From: a virus
Reading direction: 5' to 3' (one strand)
Length of the DNA: 23,879 bases
IMG/VR virus record: IMGVR_UViG_3300032087_000763
Span: 1 to 23,879 of that record
In this document: piece by piece, positions 472 through 8,611 of the stretch
Position numbering within the stretch: position 1 is the first letter of the stretch
Layout of the letters: each line of letters opens with the position of its first letter
Made by a program: the position numbers and the translations under genes
Notes under the pieces: generated by a model
The model's database searches: none
What the model saw: only the letters and a program-made list of their open reading frames with translations
What the model was told of the DNA's origin: nothing

Positions 472-496
472 GCCGTCATGTCTATAGACTGATGGC
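472..496. repeat. Near-perfect inverted repeat, possible operator or hairpin
   Basis: The arms GCCGTCATGTCTA and TAGACTGATGGC pair except for one unpaired T and one G:T wobble. The core GTCTATAGAC is a perfect palindrome with no loop, which fits a protein-binding dyad better than a terminator. No U-run follows on either strand. Confidence 0.45.
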
Positions 497-517
497 CGAC
501 CATCCGTAGTCCGCGCG

Positions 518-561
518 ATTGCTGGGCTTGCGACGCCGCCCGCCCTTAGTGTGCCAGCAAT
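518..561. repeat. 8-base inverted repeat ATTGCTGG / CCAGCAAT with 28-base loop
   Basis: ATTGCTGG at 518-525 is perfectly complementary to CCAGCAAT at 554-561. The intervening 28 bases are very G+C-rich and can fold further. This could be part of a structured RNA or DNA element in the gene-free region; no known family is recognised. Confidence 0.35.
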
Positions 562-677
562 GTGCCACCCGCCGTCGATTGTCAGCGCTGATTGGTCGCC
601 GGACTTTCGATGCCGTGGTCTGCAAATTTTTCGGGGGGCGTCGGGGGGTCGCCGTGTTTGCGGCGGGGGAAGATATG

Positions 678-3297: not shown

Positions 3298-3753
3298 TCA
3301 TCTCTCCTTCATAAACATAAGTAAGACACGCCTGTCTCCGGTATGAGGACGGACGCAATGCTCCTCGTTTGACGAGAAGATCAACAAGTCCAAATAGTGG
3401 ACTAATGCTCTGTGGTCACTTCGGAAGAAAAACTCACCACCGTTAAAACCACTGGGCGGCGTAAGAACTATGCTGGCGCTATAAGCGCACCACGGCATGT
3501 GGTTGTTGTTACCAGTGTCTTTATGCCAGCCGTGTCCATCTTTCTTTGACTCAACACAGCAATACGATGGATGGCTAAAGTCTGCGTCAATGACAGTAGA
3601 AATAATGTCTGTTATATCTGCAATGTCGTCTTCAAAAAAATCACGGGGGCCTAGCTTTGATGCTATGCGTTTAGCTGTAGAGGGCCTTAAGACACTACTG
3701 ATCTTTTGGTGCATTGCATGGACATTCTGATTTACTGCGTCCACACTTCTCAC
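3298..3753 (-). CDS. 2-oxoglutarate/Fe(II)-dependent oxygenase, prolyl-4-hydroxylase type
   Basis: The sequence shows the double-stranded beta-helix signature of the 2OG-Fe(II) oxygenase superfamily: the HxD metal motif in GWHKDTG (His77, Asp79), a GGEFFF strand, then LLIFSSNEEHCVRPHTGDRR with the distal metal His132 and the 2-oxoglutarate-binding Arg141. Such enzymes oxidise a protein, nucleic acid or small-molecule substrate using O2 and 2-oxoglutarate; the substrate cannot be told from sequence. At about 150 aa it is a minimal catalytic domain. The start is uncertain: GTG at 3753 gives 151 aa and overlaps the Cys-knuckle gene by 59 bases; ATG at 3714 gives 138 aa and a 20-base overlap. Neither has a clear Shine-Dalgarno site. 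It lies between the lysis and packaging genes. Confidence 0.88.
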   Translation of the reverse strand: MRSVDAVNQNVHAMHQKISSVLRPSTAKRIASKLGPRDFFEDDIADITDIISTVIDADFSHPSYCCVESKKDGHGWHKDTGNNNHMPWCAYSASIVLTPPSGFNGGEFFFRSDHRALVHYLDLLIFSSNEEHCVRPHTGDRRVLLMFMKER

Positions 3754-4941: not shown

Positions 4942-5121
4942 TTAGCGAGCGGATAGCCATGATCGAATCACGCCCACGAAGCGCCCAGCGTACCAGATTA
5001 TTGTAAAACCCGCCGCGATCTCGGGCAGCCACGACAAAAAAGCCGCCAGACCATTCAGACCGGCGGCGGCGTCTCCAAGATTGCGGAGATCGTTCACGGC
5101 TTTGTCGGCCAAGTCGGCCAC
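4942..5121 (-). CDS. Small one-TM protein (59 aa), holin-like candidate
   Basis: Between the tail chaperone and the coiled-coil protein, one minus frame reads VADLADKAVNDLRNLGDAAA, then GLNGLAAFLSWLPEIAAGFT and IIWYAGRFVGVIRSWLSAR. An amphipathic helix is followed by a single hydrophobic segment (about 24-51) and a basic tail. The LSWLPEIAAGFTIIWYxxR pattern resembles small membrane proteins that follow tail fibre genes in many podoviruses, where T7 has its class II holin gp17.5. The start is GTG at 5121 or GTG at 5097, and neither has a clear Shine-Dalgarno site. It overlaps the end of the chaperone gene. An Arg-rich frame (4883-5146) covers the same bases but looks non-biological. Confidence 0.55.
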   Translation of the reverse strand: MADLADKAVNDLRNLGDAAAGLNGLAAFLSWLPEIAAGFTIIWYAGRFVGVIRSWLSAR

Positions 5122-5462
5122 GCGGCAAGCGCGTCTTCGTCGCCAATTGGCGGATCGCCCGCTGTTGCAGGGAGGTCGCGCAGGGCTTGGCGGTATGCCT
5201 TCTGCTCGTCAGTCATCGTTACATCGCCGCTGGCCCACCAATCTGTCTCAGCAAGTCGCCGGTCTCGCTCGACACGCAGCGAGTTCCAATACCCATCGAC
5301 ATTAGTCGGATGCACGAATTTCGTAAGAACGCTGCCATCCCAACTATCTCCGATTGCGGCATCAACATTGTCACAAATCGTATAGCCGTCAGGCGCTTGA
5401 TAGCCCTGATCCGCGACGATGATGTTTTCAATTTTACCGTTTCTAGCTAATGCAATTTTCAT
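5094..5462 (-). CDS. Phage tail assembly chaperone
   Basis: A 122-aa protein. The second half carries the tail assembly chaperone signature (PF16778 type, from memory): YWNSLRVERDRRLAETDWWA (about 58-77), then DVTMTDEQKAYRQALRDLP (about 80-98). The N-terminal part (MKIALARNGKIENIIVAD) is a small beta domain often found in front of it. Such proteins help fold or assemble distal tail proteins and are commonly encoded directly after the fibre genes, as here. The gene begins 4 bases after the stop of the glycine-rich adhesin. It ends in a Pro/Trp-rich tail whose codons overlap the small TM gene in another frame. Confidence 0.85.
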   Translation of the reverse strand: MKIALARNGKIENIIVADQGYQAPDGYTICDNVDAAIGDSWDGSVLTKFVHPTNVDGYWNSLRVERDRRLAETDWWASGDVTMTDEQKAYRQALRDLPATAGDPPIGDEDALAAWPTWPTKP

Positions 5463-5466
5463 TTCA

Positions 5467-6495
5467 TCAATTCCAAATGCTTATGCGAACATACCCGTCA
5501 CCGCCCGCGCCGGATGAGGTAACCGTTCCGCCGCCACCGCCGCCGCCCGGCACCTTGCCGTCTTCGCCTTGACCATTGCCATCACCGTACCCGCCGTTCC
5601 CGCCGAACACAGACATGCCGCCTTGTTTGTAGTAACCGCTGCCGCCTCCACCACCGTAAATGGAATTGCCGCCGATTGAAGAGCCGCCGCCGCCACCGCC
5701 GTAAATCGAGTTACCGCCACGTCCTTGGTTGAAACAGCCGCCAGAACCGCCGCCATGATGACTGTCGAATCCGTGGCCAGCAGAACTCAACGCTGCGCCG
5801 CCACGCGGGTTGCCGCCCGCGCCCGAGGCGAGTCGCGCTGTGGCCGTGCTACCGGCCGAGCCTAGCTCGCCGCCTCCGCCTCCGCCGCCACCTGCACCGA
5901 CGTTAGCGCCATCACCACCCCCACCGCCGTAAGCGTATAAAGTGCGTCTATTTGTAACAGTGACCGACGTGGTGCCGCCGATGTCACCGTTGTTGCCATT
6001 TCCTGTCTTGGCCGCACCGCCAGCACCAATCGTCACGGTCTCAGTCGAACCAAAATCGGCCAAAACGTGATAGCTGAAGTCATAGCCACCACCACCACCG
6101 CCGCCAGACTCTTGTCCAGGCGCTCCCATGCCGCCAGAACCGCCGCCACCCCAAACCTCAATTAAAATTTTTGAGGCGCTAGCGGGGACCGTCCAAGTAC
6201 CGCTGCTGGTAAATGTTGTTATGGTGTCGGGTTCTCCGTCGGCGTCAGAATGACCGTCAGGTCCATCGCCCGCTGCAACAGCTTTCCAAGTTCCGTCGCC
6301 CGCCAAAAAGGTAGACCCGCTTGGCGATCCTGATCCAAGTCGCGCTGTTGGCACAGTGCCAGAGGCAAGGTTGCTCGCGTTGAGCGCCGTAAGGTTTGCG
6401 CCGCTTCCATTTGGCGCCAAAACATCGGTTCCGATGGCAAGCCCAAGATCGGAACGCGTTGTAGCAAGGTCGGCGGGGTTAAGTCGTATAGTCAT
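5467..6495 (-). CDS. Glycine-rich tail adhesin
   Basis: A 342-aa protein in two parts. The first part (about 1-40) is LATTRSDLGLAIGTDVLAP...GSGANLT, almost the same as in the preceding gene, and is followed by a linker with a GTVPTARLG repeat-like piece. From about residue 92 (TTFTSSGTWTVPASASKIL) to the end it is a glycine-rich domain with many runs of 5-8 Gly and a duplicated GGNSIYGGGGG unit, closing with DGYVRISIW. From memory, this domain (Gly_rich type) occurs at the tips of phage tail fibres, and glycine-rich adhesins such as gp38 of T-even-type phages form stacked polyglycine helices with host-binding loops. The likely role is receptor recognition. GGAG in the 3' end of the previous gene serves as ribosome binding site. 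Confidence 0.82.
   Translation of the reverse strand: MTIRLNPADLATTRSDLGLAIGTDVLAPNGSGANLTALNASNLASGTVPTARLGSGSPSGSTFLAGDGTWKAVAAGDGPDGHSDADGEPDTITTFTSSGTWTVPASASKILIEVWGGGGSGGMGAPGQESGGGGGGGYDFSYHVLADFGSTETVTIGAGGAAKTGNGNNGDIGGTTSVTVTNRRTLYAYGGGGGDGANVGAGGGGGGGGELGSAGSTATARLASGAGGNPRGGAALSSAGHGFDSHHGGGSGGCFNQGRGGNSIYGGGGGGSSIGGNSIYGGGGGSGYYKQGGMSVFGGNGGYGDGNGQGEDGKVPGGGGGGGTVTSSGAGGDGYVRISIWN
6392..6481 (-). repeat. Direct repeat copy 2: N-terminal module of the glycine-rich adhesin
   Basis: About 90 bases matching 7442-7531 at roughly three quarters of positions, in register, 1050 bases apart. It encodes the shared LGLAIGTDVLAPxGSGANLT module. The match fades on both sides, as expected for duplication or exchange of a docking segment. 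Confidence 0.75.
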
Positions 6496-6498
6496 CTA

Positions 6499-7548
6499 CT
6501 AGCTCCATTTCAGGGCAACGCCGTGAACCTCAATGTCTTTGTTATTGAGGCTCTTGACCCGGTATTTCATTGAAGTTCCGGAGGGCTGAGACGAGATGTC
6601 GGTTGACGGGGATTCGTAATATTTCGTTCCGCTTGCGCCCAAAGTTGTGTTCAGAGCTAATGTGCAAGCCGTGAACGTCGTTCCGCCATCGCGTGACACC
6701 TCTGCCGTCAGGTCGGTGTTAATCGTGATGCTTTCGTTTTCGACAACCTGAACACCGATGACTGCACTTGACGGCGCTGAGTCAGCCGTAAAAGCATTGC
6801 TGACAAGCGTCATATTATTAGGCGTTCCAGAAAATAATTGAAGTTCGGCAAGGTATGCGGTACCGCCGCTGAACAATAACTCGCAATAATAGTTTTCGTA
6901 GCTGGTCGAGCCAGTTATTGCAAAAGTGCTTACATCGTTCGTAGTGTTATTGTAATCGACGCCCGCTGTACCCGAAAAAAGCAGGGTTCCTCCAGAAGTC
7001 GATGCGCTACTGTTGCCGTAAATTTTAATACCATTCGAGGCATTATACCCGGTGTTGTTCGGCGCGTAGACTTTAGCCTGACCCAGACGAAAACCATTCC
7101 CGCTGCCGAGTGCAACACCCACCGTTCCCGGCTGCGTGGTTCCCGCTGCCGTCGCGGTGTAAGCTTGACTTGTCGTGCCGTCGAACGCCGCCGCCAAACC
7201 GCCGCTGCTGGTCATGTTGCCAAAATATGTTTTGCTGGAAAGGTCTTCGACGGACCCGATGGCCAGCGAAGAGGTGTAGTAGGTACTGGAACTATTAAAC
7301 ACCTGATTTGTTGATGTGCCGGTGTCAACATCGGTCTCGTCGGTAAAAGGATCGGCGATTCCGTTTTCCAGCGCAATCCTGTCAGACGCAACCTGAAGCG
7401 CGAGGAATCGAATGTCGGCGGAAAGATCAGGAAGATTGGTCAGGTTTGCACCGGACCCACTTGGAGCAAGAACATCGGTACCAATGGCAAGGCCAAGCCC
7501 CGCTCGCGTTGCCGCGAGATCATCAGGATTAAAAGTAATCGTTCCCAT
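6499..7548 (-). CDS. Tail adhesin with galactose-binding-like (discoidin-type) domain
   Basis: A 349-aa protein. Residues 1-37 carry the shared module LAATRAGLGLAIGTDVLAPS. A helical linker follows (about 40-65). Residues about 108-242 look like an F5/8-type or galactose-binding-like beta sandwich: GGLAAAFDGTTSQAY, VALGSGNGFRLGQAKVYAP, NGIKIYGNSS and YLAELQLFS, the usual order for this fold. The C-terminal part (about 255-349) is a second beta domain with EVSRDGGTTFTACTL and SGTSMKYRVKSLNN, seen in other phage tail proteins. Such domains bind sugars on the cell surface, so a role in host attachment is likely. It sits between the gp17-like fibre and the glycine-rich adhesin, with AGGAAC before the ATG. 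Confidence 0.8.
   Translation of the reverse strand: MGTITFNPDDLAATRAGLGLAIGTDVLAPSGSGANLTNLPDLSADIRFLALQVASDRIALENGIADPFTDETDVDTGTSTNQVFNSSSTYYTSSLAIGSVEDLSSKTYFGNMTSSGGLAAAFDGTTSQAYTATAAGTTQPGTVGVALGSGNGFRLGQAKVYAPNNTGYNASNGIKIYGNSSASTSGGTLLFSGTAGVDYNNTTNDVSTFAITGSTSYENYYCELLFSGGTAYLAELQLFSGTPNNMTLVSNAFTADSAPSSAVIGVQVVENESITINTDLTAEVSRDGGTTFTACTLALNTTLGASGTKYYESPSTDISSQPSGTSMKYRVKSLNNKDIEVHGVALKWS
7442..7531 (-). repeat. Direct repeat copy 1: N-terminal module of the discoidin-type adhesin
   Basis: Partner of 6392-6481, with about three quarters of the 90 positions identical. Both copies lie at the same place in their genes, just after the start codon. Confidence 0.75.
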
Positions 7549-7549
7549 A

Positions 7550-8611
7550 TTAAGTTCCTACAATGTGCCAAGCCGCGCCCGTCGAAACGGTGACGCTGCT
7601 GCCTGTTGTGATTGTGACAGGACCGGCGGACATCCCGTTTGACCCGCTAGGAATTGTGAGGCTGACGCTGCCGCTAATCTGATTCTTATTTGTACGGATG
7701 ACGCTTTCTTCGCCAATTCCTCCACCATCTAAGCCGGGACCGCCGCCGCCAATCGAGCCCCACTCGGAGCCGTTGTAGCCCTCGAACACCGTGTCCGTGC
7801 TGTTGAATCGGATGAAGCCAGCGGACGGGGAGCCGTCGCGTTGTCCTGTCGTGCCAACTGGCAGTTGACCACTGCCTGTTACAGACGTTTTGCCAACGAC
7901 AGCATCACCGCTTACAGCAGCGTCTTGCCAGCTTGACCCGTTGTAAATTTTGAGGACATTAGAGGTCGTGTTGAAATATTGGTCACCCGCCGTCAGCGCA
8001 TCGCCGTCGTTGTCTGTCGCAGGATCGGTAGCGAAAGCCCCAAGATAAATATCAGTAAAACTGTCGAGCGCTGTTTCGGCTGCTGTTTGCGCGGTCTCAG
8101 CCGCCGTCTTTGCCGTTTCAGCAGCGGTCTGTGCGGTTTGCGCGGCAGTTACATTTGCAGCGTTGGTTGTGATGACCCCGTCGACATAGCTTTTCGTTGC
8201 TGCGTCTTGTGCTGTTGTGGGATTGCTAACATTAACAATTTTATTGTTTGTAGCGTCCCAGTTGTTGTTTGAGTCTCTATTAATGACGTATGTAGCAACG
8301 TCATTAGCCTCTTGAGCAAGATAGAACGCTTGGAGACTATCAGTATCAAGGATTTCTTCGGACAAGATCGATCCAGATTGATAGTCCACCAATCGGGTTG
8401 AAGGCGAGGTTGCTCGATAAATAAGGATGTCGTCGCCGGATGCCGGCATTGAATCCATTTGGATTCGGGAACTGGAGATAAACGTGAAATCTGTGGTCAG
8501 AGTTCCGTTCAACTCCACTTTGACATGCGTCTGGCTGATGTATGGAAAGGTTACGTCGAACTCGTCAGTCGAACCGTCCAGATCAGTGTGGACGATTCGA
8601 GCAAACGCCAT
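7550..8611 (-). CDS. Tail fibre, T7 gp17-like N-terminal anchor
   Basis: A 353-aa protein. Residues 1-125 match the T7 tail fibre N-terminal domain that docks on the tail: LDGSTDEFDVTFPYISQTHV, TRLVDYQSGSIL (compare TDRLVDFTDGSIL in T7), and ANDVATYVINRDSNNNWDA. Next come NKIVNVSNPTTAQDAATKSY, a heptad-like Ala/Thr coiled coil (about 150-185, TAAETAKTAAETAQ), and the YLGAFATDPATDNDGDALTA...LKIYNGSSWQ block common in marine phage fibres. A short Gly-rich and beta C-terminus follows, with no recognised receptor-binding tip. At 353 aa it is much shorter than T7 gp17 (553 aa), which suggests that host binding is delegated to the two adhesins encoded next. Confidence 0.9.
   Translation of the reverse strand: MAFARIVHTDLDGSTDEFDVTFPYISQTHVKVELNGTLTTDFTFISSSRIQMDSMPASGDDILIYRATSPSTRLVDYQSGSILSEEILDTDSLQAFYLAQEANDVATYVINRDSNNNWDATNNKIVNVSNPTTAQDAATKSYVDGVITTNAANVTAAQTAQTAAETAKTAAETAQTAAETALDSFTDIYLGAFATDPATDNDGDALTAGDQYFNTTSNVLKIYNGSSWQDAAVSGDAVVGKTSVTGSGQLPVGTTGQRDGSPSAGFIRFNSTDTVFEGYNGSEWGSIGGGGPGLDGGGIGEESVIRTNKNQISGSVSLTIPSGSNGMSAGPVTITTGSSVTVSTGAAWHIVGT

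Follow-up and report, generated by a model that had tools for sequence, protein, structure and literature searches.

The window analysed here, a viral record of 23,879 bases, contains at positions 5467 to 6495 a gene with an ATG start for a very glycine-rich protein of 342 residues, which raises the question of what such an adhesin does on a T7-like virus and why its gene is followed by one for a chaperone. The podovirus label of the initial annotation is reasonable, as the window carries T7-like fibre and terminase genes; the best T7-like matches listed for the terminase, many from marine phages, are ~40-43% identical to it. Along the direction of transcription, a fibre adaptor of the T7 gp17 N-terminal type (7550-8611; PF03906, 118.7 bits) precedes a sibling fibre protein (6499-7548), the adhesin (5467-6495) and a tail-fibre chaperone of 122 residues with a layout like that of Pam3 gp25 (5094-5462; PF16778, 54.1 bits for a cut-off of 26.6). 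These four genes, and the parts of the adhesin and chaperone located below, are on the minus strand. The gap between the end of the adhesin and the start of this Phage_tail_APC gene is 4 nt, so that the adhesin does lie directly before a tail chaperone, as had been noted. Rhizobium phage proteins that carry a concanavalin A-like lectin/glucanase annotation share ~45-48% identity with the C-terminal third of the sibling. Elsewhere in the window, a small DUF6321 protein is encoded at 2560-2802 by a gene that overlaps the start of the terminase gene. We consider it likely that a T7-like marine phage carries the adhesin at the end of a split fibre as its receptor-binding tip, and that the matched half of the adjoining chaperone is exchanged together with the tip.

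Glycine accounts for 93 of the 254 residues between positions 89 and 342 of the adhesin (37%); it makes up 6-11% of the products of eight other large genes of the window. The same part contains six runs of at least five Gly (lengths 7, 5, 8, 6, 5 and 7), while 5,000 composition-preserving shuffles of residues 89-342 gave a mean of 0.99 such runs and reached six in a fraction of 0.0002, in agreement with the glycine richness and the runs of five to eight Gly reported initially. The repeated GGNSIYGGGGG unit described at the same time was found in two exact copies, at residues 260-270 (5686-5718) and 275-285 (5641-5673), with a looser third version, GGMSVFGG, at residue 292. Glycine codons are mixed in runs of at least four Gly (GGC 23, GGT 14, GGA 4, GGG 1), and these runs are therefore no simple DNA repeat. 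Searches of isolates by tblastn, using the adhesin or its N-terminal 82 residues as queries, yielded no match; masking of the glycine-rich region by the low-complexity filter is probably one of the reasons.

The Pfam family Gly_rich_2 (PF21722) spans residues 96-339 with a score of 50.8 bits, above the curated cut-off of 24.3, and was the only Pfam family found in the adhesin. A first-pass search of the window's own record with the PF21722 profile had missed the gene (0 matches), which hmmscan scores over the cut-off. An AlphaFold2 model of the single chain, built on a 33-row alignment, has a mean pLDDT of 75.8, with values of 82-98 in ten-residue blocks over residues 91-210 and 261-342 and low values at the N terminus (residues 1-60) and in much of 211-260. 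Comparison with solved structures using VIA-align gave Bxb1 gp33 (PDB 9D93; Z 20.9, rmsd 2.3 over 181 residues), the Pam3 tail fibre gp24 (Z 17.4 and 16.6; chain 7ypx_A, rmsd 2.4 over 183 residues) and the glycine-rich domain of ALK/LTK (Z 7-9), unrelated rows scoring at most 3.7; the Foldseek ranking of the model agrees. Chains 7ypx_A and 7ypx_a were assigned to gp24 and gp25, respectively, from chain lengths and the Pam3 paper. Sequence searches of the PDB with the single adhesin protein and with the A2 profile found no match; the A4 profile, whose alignment left out duplicates of contigs already represented and six available domains with odd starts or ends (L016, L065, L098, L099, L101 and L102), retrieved Bxb1 gp33 (E 0.019) and one unrelated chain (E 0.5).

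Pfam, the homologue alignment, the model and the fold matches point to a TNF-like plus glycine-rich (TG) domain at residues 91-342 (5470-6225), with a predicted TNF-like base and a bundle of glycine-rich strands of the Pam3 gp24 type. These would be polyglycine strands, judging by the matches to Bxb1 gp33, Pam3 gp24 and ALK/LTK. By its fold, the tip belongs to a class already known, of which it is a new member. As for the polyglycine-helix sandwich that the initial annotation had proposed, structure prediction supports stacked glycine-rich strands such as those of the three matched proteins, but the nearest relative is of the Pam3 gp24 type and the suggested kinship with gp38 was not supported by the matches listed. 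It is highly unlikely that a true gp38 homologue, which would combine a beta-helix with a polyglycine sandwich of three layers, has moved into a podovirus. The general design is alike, in that PP01 and S16 gp38 are likewise tip proteins with glycine-rich strands and loops that vary in the accessible part of their description (PMC12892980), but the best solved matches of the adhesin are Bxb1 gp33, Pam3 gp24 and ALK/LTK, and Pfam gives Gly_rich_2 only. We do not favor gp38 homology, as neither a solved-structure match nor a family match pointed to it; S16 gp38 (6F45) was not among the matches listed by Foldseek or VIA-align, an absence that proves nothing by itself. A similar fold is also predicted in proteins of giant viruses in BFVD (Klosneuvirus, Fadolivirus, Bandra megavirus and Powai lake megavirus), some of which are named collagen-like.

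Linkers between the glycine-rich strands alternate in the 33-row alignment of homologues, the odd ones being hypervariable and the even ones less variable. The seven odd linkers differ in length and have mean entropies of 2.11-2.95 bits, and the six even linkers are mostly of fixed length with 1.12-2.06 bits; the borders were drawn after the column table was seen, and the test covered the domain on either side of residues 214-266. In the adhesin, the hypervariable linkers are residues 123-130 (6106-6129), 161-169 (5989-6015), 195-203 (5887-5913), 272-274 (5674-5682; 1 to 18 residues in homologues), 288-291 (5623-5634), 305-312 (5560-5583) and 323-328 (5512-5529). Distal-linker identity was lower than framework identity in 528/528 pairs, the framework including the glycines, which raise its identity. 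Six close pairs, one of which (L019 and the second copy in L072) consists of tandem paralogues on one contig, had similar synonymous change in distal linkers and framework (pS 0.43-0.75 versus 0.45-0.76), while amino acid change was 1.9 to 6 times higher in the loops (pN 0.09-0.47 versus 0.05-0.12). Positive selection (dN/dS above 1) was not seen in the loops, dN in the distal linkers being smaller than dS where dS was computable. These sequence data fit loops that are free to change on a constrained scaffold. The short variable loops first noted between the glycine-rich strands were thus found again, at every second linker, in homologues outside the window's lineage. Within that lineage, the only relative with the gene (L001) has an identical adhesin protein and differs from the window at 40 nucleotides over 6,554, one of them inside the adhesin gene; 24 of the 40 cluster at window positions 494-632, beyond the terminase end. 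Some contigs carry two glycine-rich adhesins with different loops (L019/L072, L024/L025), in tandem (3300027971_000256) or apart (3300014208_000019).

The alternation, taken together with Pam3, suggests that the odd linkers are at the far end of the bundle, where by analogy they may form the host-contact surface. Alternatively, the adhesin might be a structural or spacer protein of the tail whose glycine-rich part does not bind a receptor, leaving host binding to the sibling at 6499-7548. Bxb1 gp33, the protein it matches best, carries the name tail wing brush, and the sibling has the same type of N-terminal module and a part resembling the Rhizobium phage proteins with lectin-like annotation. 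Nevertheless, this explanation is unlikely given that alternate linkers of the adhesin are hypervariable and that it is the adhesin gene that the chaperone adjoins. We therefore retain the adhesin as the receptor-binding tip.

Residues 1-76 of the adhesin (6268-6495) recur, partly or whole, on other contigs before quite different C-terminal domains, mostly at 52-86% identity, and the sibling opens with a stretch paralogous to them. An adhesin-type start is fused to a sibling-type C terminus at two loci (L007 and L008), the second of which has in addition a separate glycine-rich protein with another N terminus. As the start recurs with other tips and the glycine-rich tip occurs with another start, the two are independent modules. 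This recurrence marks residues 1-76 as a probable docking module to the fibre, a role that we put no more firmly because residues 1-60 model at low confidence.

We then turn to the chaperone, whose model (pLDDT 88) has a beta N-terminal half and a helical C-terminal half. The latter contains the APC domain (residues 60-119; 5106-5285; PF16778), and the former (residues 1-55; 5298-5462) is of the kind that adjoins other glycine-rich adhesins: a beta-domain profile of 22 such genes, with the window excluded, gave the window's chaperone 32.7 bits, compared with 13.5 for the best of 2,000 shuffles; where the adhesin's N-terminal module carries another tip, the chaperone alongside scored at most 2.7. 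In a Foldseek search with the model, the Pam3 chaperone chain 7ypx_a was in the second row of 350,542 chains, a match weak both by E value (0.12) and by Z score (4.6, tied with unrelated helical rows). By eye, 23 of 32 glycine-rich adhesin genes are followed by a gene that begins with the beta domain. No recognisable beta-domain gene adjoins the other nine, and the pairing is therefore not obligate; L008, where a small gene after the glycine-rich gene is loosely similar (4.7 bits), was counted as lacking the domain. Among 23 small beta-type proteins scanned, 14 match PHROG 14370, a family of unknown function. The element common to the partners of glycine-rich adhesins is the beta domain and not APC. 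APC as their general partner was rejected, PF16778 being present in 2 of the 32 genes scanned, the window's included, a count resting on the longest ORF within 250 nt, by which several small beta-only genes were skipped. The window also has a weak 2OG-Fe(II) oxygenase-like gene (3298-3753; PHROG, E 0.0055), and another type of locus (L115, 2284-3246) has, immediately downstream of a glycine-rich adhesin, an oxygenase-looking stretch, recognised by eye, that shares one open frame with a beta domain and APC; a link of such stretches to fibre modification is possible.

The association of beta domain and glycine-rich tip was analyzed at 80 loci with an APC chaperone related to that of the window, 73 of which have an upstream gene. 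With thresholds of 15 and 10 bits, set after the scores were seen, 14 of the 73 had both a beta domain and a glycine-rich upstream gene, 59 had neither and none was mixed. The beta domain is thus present by 14/14 glycine-rich tips and 0/59 other tips, and the APC half is common to both. Many of these loci are near-identical; by clusters, the numbers are 3 and 27 (n = 30), L176 sitting in a cluster represented by a non-beta member. The seven loci without an upstream gene include one of beta type (L125, 43.1 bits) and a cut copy (L107, 11.2 bits). Searches from two small beta-only genes gave 18 loci with 11 distinct upstream sequences. All 16 loci above 15 bits with an upstream gene have a glycine-rich one, and at one weak locus (L194, 12.9 bits) the upstream gene is not glycine-rich.

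Of 40 matching records of named isolates, 18 were analyzed, with 19 chaperone genes between them, and in three of these genes, those of KBS-P-1A, HTVC115P and NATL2A-133, the upstream gene is glycine-rich. The first profile gave these three 10.8, 16.1 and 2.4 bits, respectively, so that two of them fell below the 15-bit line, and the other 16 at most 2.1 bits. A second-round profile recognised 3/3 of the glycine-rich isolates and 0/16 of the others; as it included KBS-P-1A and HTVC115P, NATL2A-133 alone was held out, and it scored 19.5 bits, the next best being 3.8. KBS-P-1A and NATL2A-133 are cyanophages filed under Autographiviridae, and HTVC115P is a Pelagibacter phage. Since all three carry glycine-rich tip genes, there is nothing unusual about a tip of this kind in phages other than the T-even group. 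Their adhesins are annotated merely as hypothetical or predicted (KBS-P-1A, L204 2273-2986; HTVC115P, L206 2303-2995; NATL2A-133, L220 1-2827).

Two of the loci record an apparent exchange. As far as the adhesin start codon, L157 and L176 share 79.7% DNA identity. No similarity is detectable over the adhesin or the first part of the chaperone gene; it returns, at 79.5% identity, within that gene at L176 position 3196 (codon 68 of 112) and continues from there. In L176, the adhesin is glycine-rich (PF21722, 51.2 bits) and the chaperone has the beta domain (19.1 bits); L157 has another tip, with no Pfam match, and another chaperone N-terminal half. From the sequences, a single block comprising the whole adhesin and the front of the chaperone was apparently replaced, its downstream breakpoint falling within the chaperone gene. 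Between the window and relatives with other tips, DNA similarity ends within the N-terminal module, at codon 76 (L002) at the latest. It resumes at chaperone codons 67-70 (5255-5263) in L004, L006, L108, L157 and L176; the same comparison found no DNA match at this point in L002, L003 and L005. Because this junction recurs, crossover may take place at the conserved beginning of the APC half.

These junctions also bear on whether beta domain and glycine-rich tip co-occur by shared inheritance in a few lineages and not by a functional match. That the APC-type evidence comes down to three clusters out of the 30 that have an upstream gene, and that the 18 loci of the beta-only search have only 11 distinct upstream sequences, would be in keeping with inheritance. 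Against it, the APC end of L176 is 84.9% identical to that of L157 over 53 residues, yet N-terminal half and tip differ; the pairing recurs elsewhere, with beta-domain genes by 23/32 adhesins and in three isolates; and Pam3 gp25 touches gp24 through its beta half, according to the accessible part of the Pam3 report (PMC9608196). We thus give shared inheritance little credence and favor a functional match, in which the tip is exchanged with its half of the chaperone.

The following sequence of events is consistent with this reading. The first ~76 residues of the adhesin would dock the tip to the fibre. In residues 91-342, glycine-rich strands would rise as a packed bundle from a small TNF-like beta base, and every second linker would contribute, at the far end, to the surface that meets the host. 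As described for Pam3 gp25 in the sections available, residues 1-55 of the chaperone would be a beta domain that holds the glycine-rich client, and residues 60-119 a helical APC part that trimerises while the client is held. The finished tip would then join the fibre through the N-terminal module, its distal loops touching the host. Tip and matching chaperone half may be swapped as one contiguous segment between the adhesin start and the APC half. Through such joint exchange, each new tip would arrive with a helper able to fold it.

More generally, on balance we favor the view that the tip fold and the client-binding half of the chaperone form one exchangeable genetic unit, replaced in a single recombination between docking and APC ends that are kept. 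It would follow that the first ~55 residues of a chaperone predict the fold of its tip; small beta-only genes after glycine-rich adhesins, such as those of PHROG 14370, would be dedicated helpers. In the literature searched, we found no link of the beta domain to glycine-rich tips as a class, no role for the small beta-only genes and no swap breakpoint inside a chaperone gene. Such a unit would explain how phages change tips of unrelated folds yet still fold them. A number of small genes without annotation would gain a likely role, and a sequence rule, from chaperone N-terminal half to tip fold, could be applied to marine isolates such as KBS-P-1A, NATL2A-133 and HTVC115P.

Among known systems, the locus most resembles Pam3 gp24-gp25 (PDB 7YPX, 7YFW). 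As far as the accessible part of that report goes, gp24 begins with a helical domain, followed by a TNF-like domain and a domain of 39% glycine similar to ALK, the last with twelve glycine-rich motifs in four layers and a variable distal tip; the beta domain of gp25 (residues 1-55) binds the TNF-like/glycine-rich junction of gp24, and its helical half trimerises (PMC9608196). That gp25 and Tfa combine distinct client N-terminal halves with a conserved C-terminal half was already stated there. The window shares with Pam3 a predicted TNF-like and glycine-rich tip, with hypervariable distal linkers and a conserved stem in homologues, and a chaperone with a beta N-terminal half (1-55) and a helical C-terminal half, the structural match of the latter protein being weak. 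Unlike Pam3, the window's phage is a T7-like podovirus with a fibre split over at least three genes. No long helix is predicted in the N terminus of the adhesin, where another module replaces the helical baseplate domain, and the adhesin is therefore a relative of Pam3 gp24 in its tip only. Bxb1 gp33, the tail wing brush (PDB 9D93) and a part of a mycobacteriophage tail tip, has the closest fold to the tip. The T-even gp38 proteins (S16, 6F45; PP01) are alike in their polyglycine sandwich and variable receptor loops and differ in having a beta-helix and not a TNF-like base, in both cases by the published descriptions accessible. They attach to the tip of a gp37 fibre; in the part of the genome that the record covers, the neighboring fibre gene is of the T7 gp17 N-terminal type (PF03906). 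In the accessible part of another paper, the Pam3 and Bxb1 domains are counted as bundles of the polyproline-II type and described as resembling S16 gp38. The ALK/LTK receptor domain also combines a TNF-like base with glycine-rich strands, but belongs to animal receptor kinases. In the G segment of phage Mu, tip and chaperone are exchanged together by means of an invertible segment. Here, in contrast, the exchange appears to have occurred by recombination with a breakpoint inside the chaperone gene.
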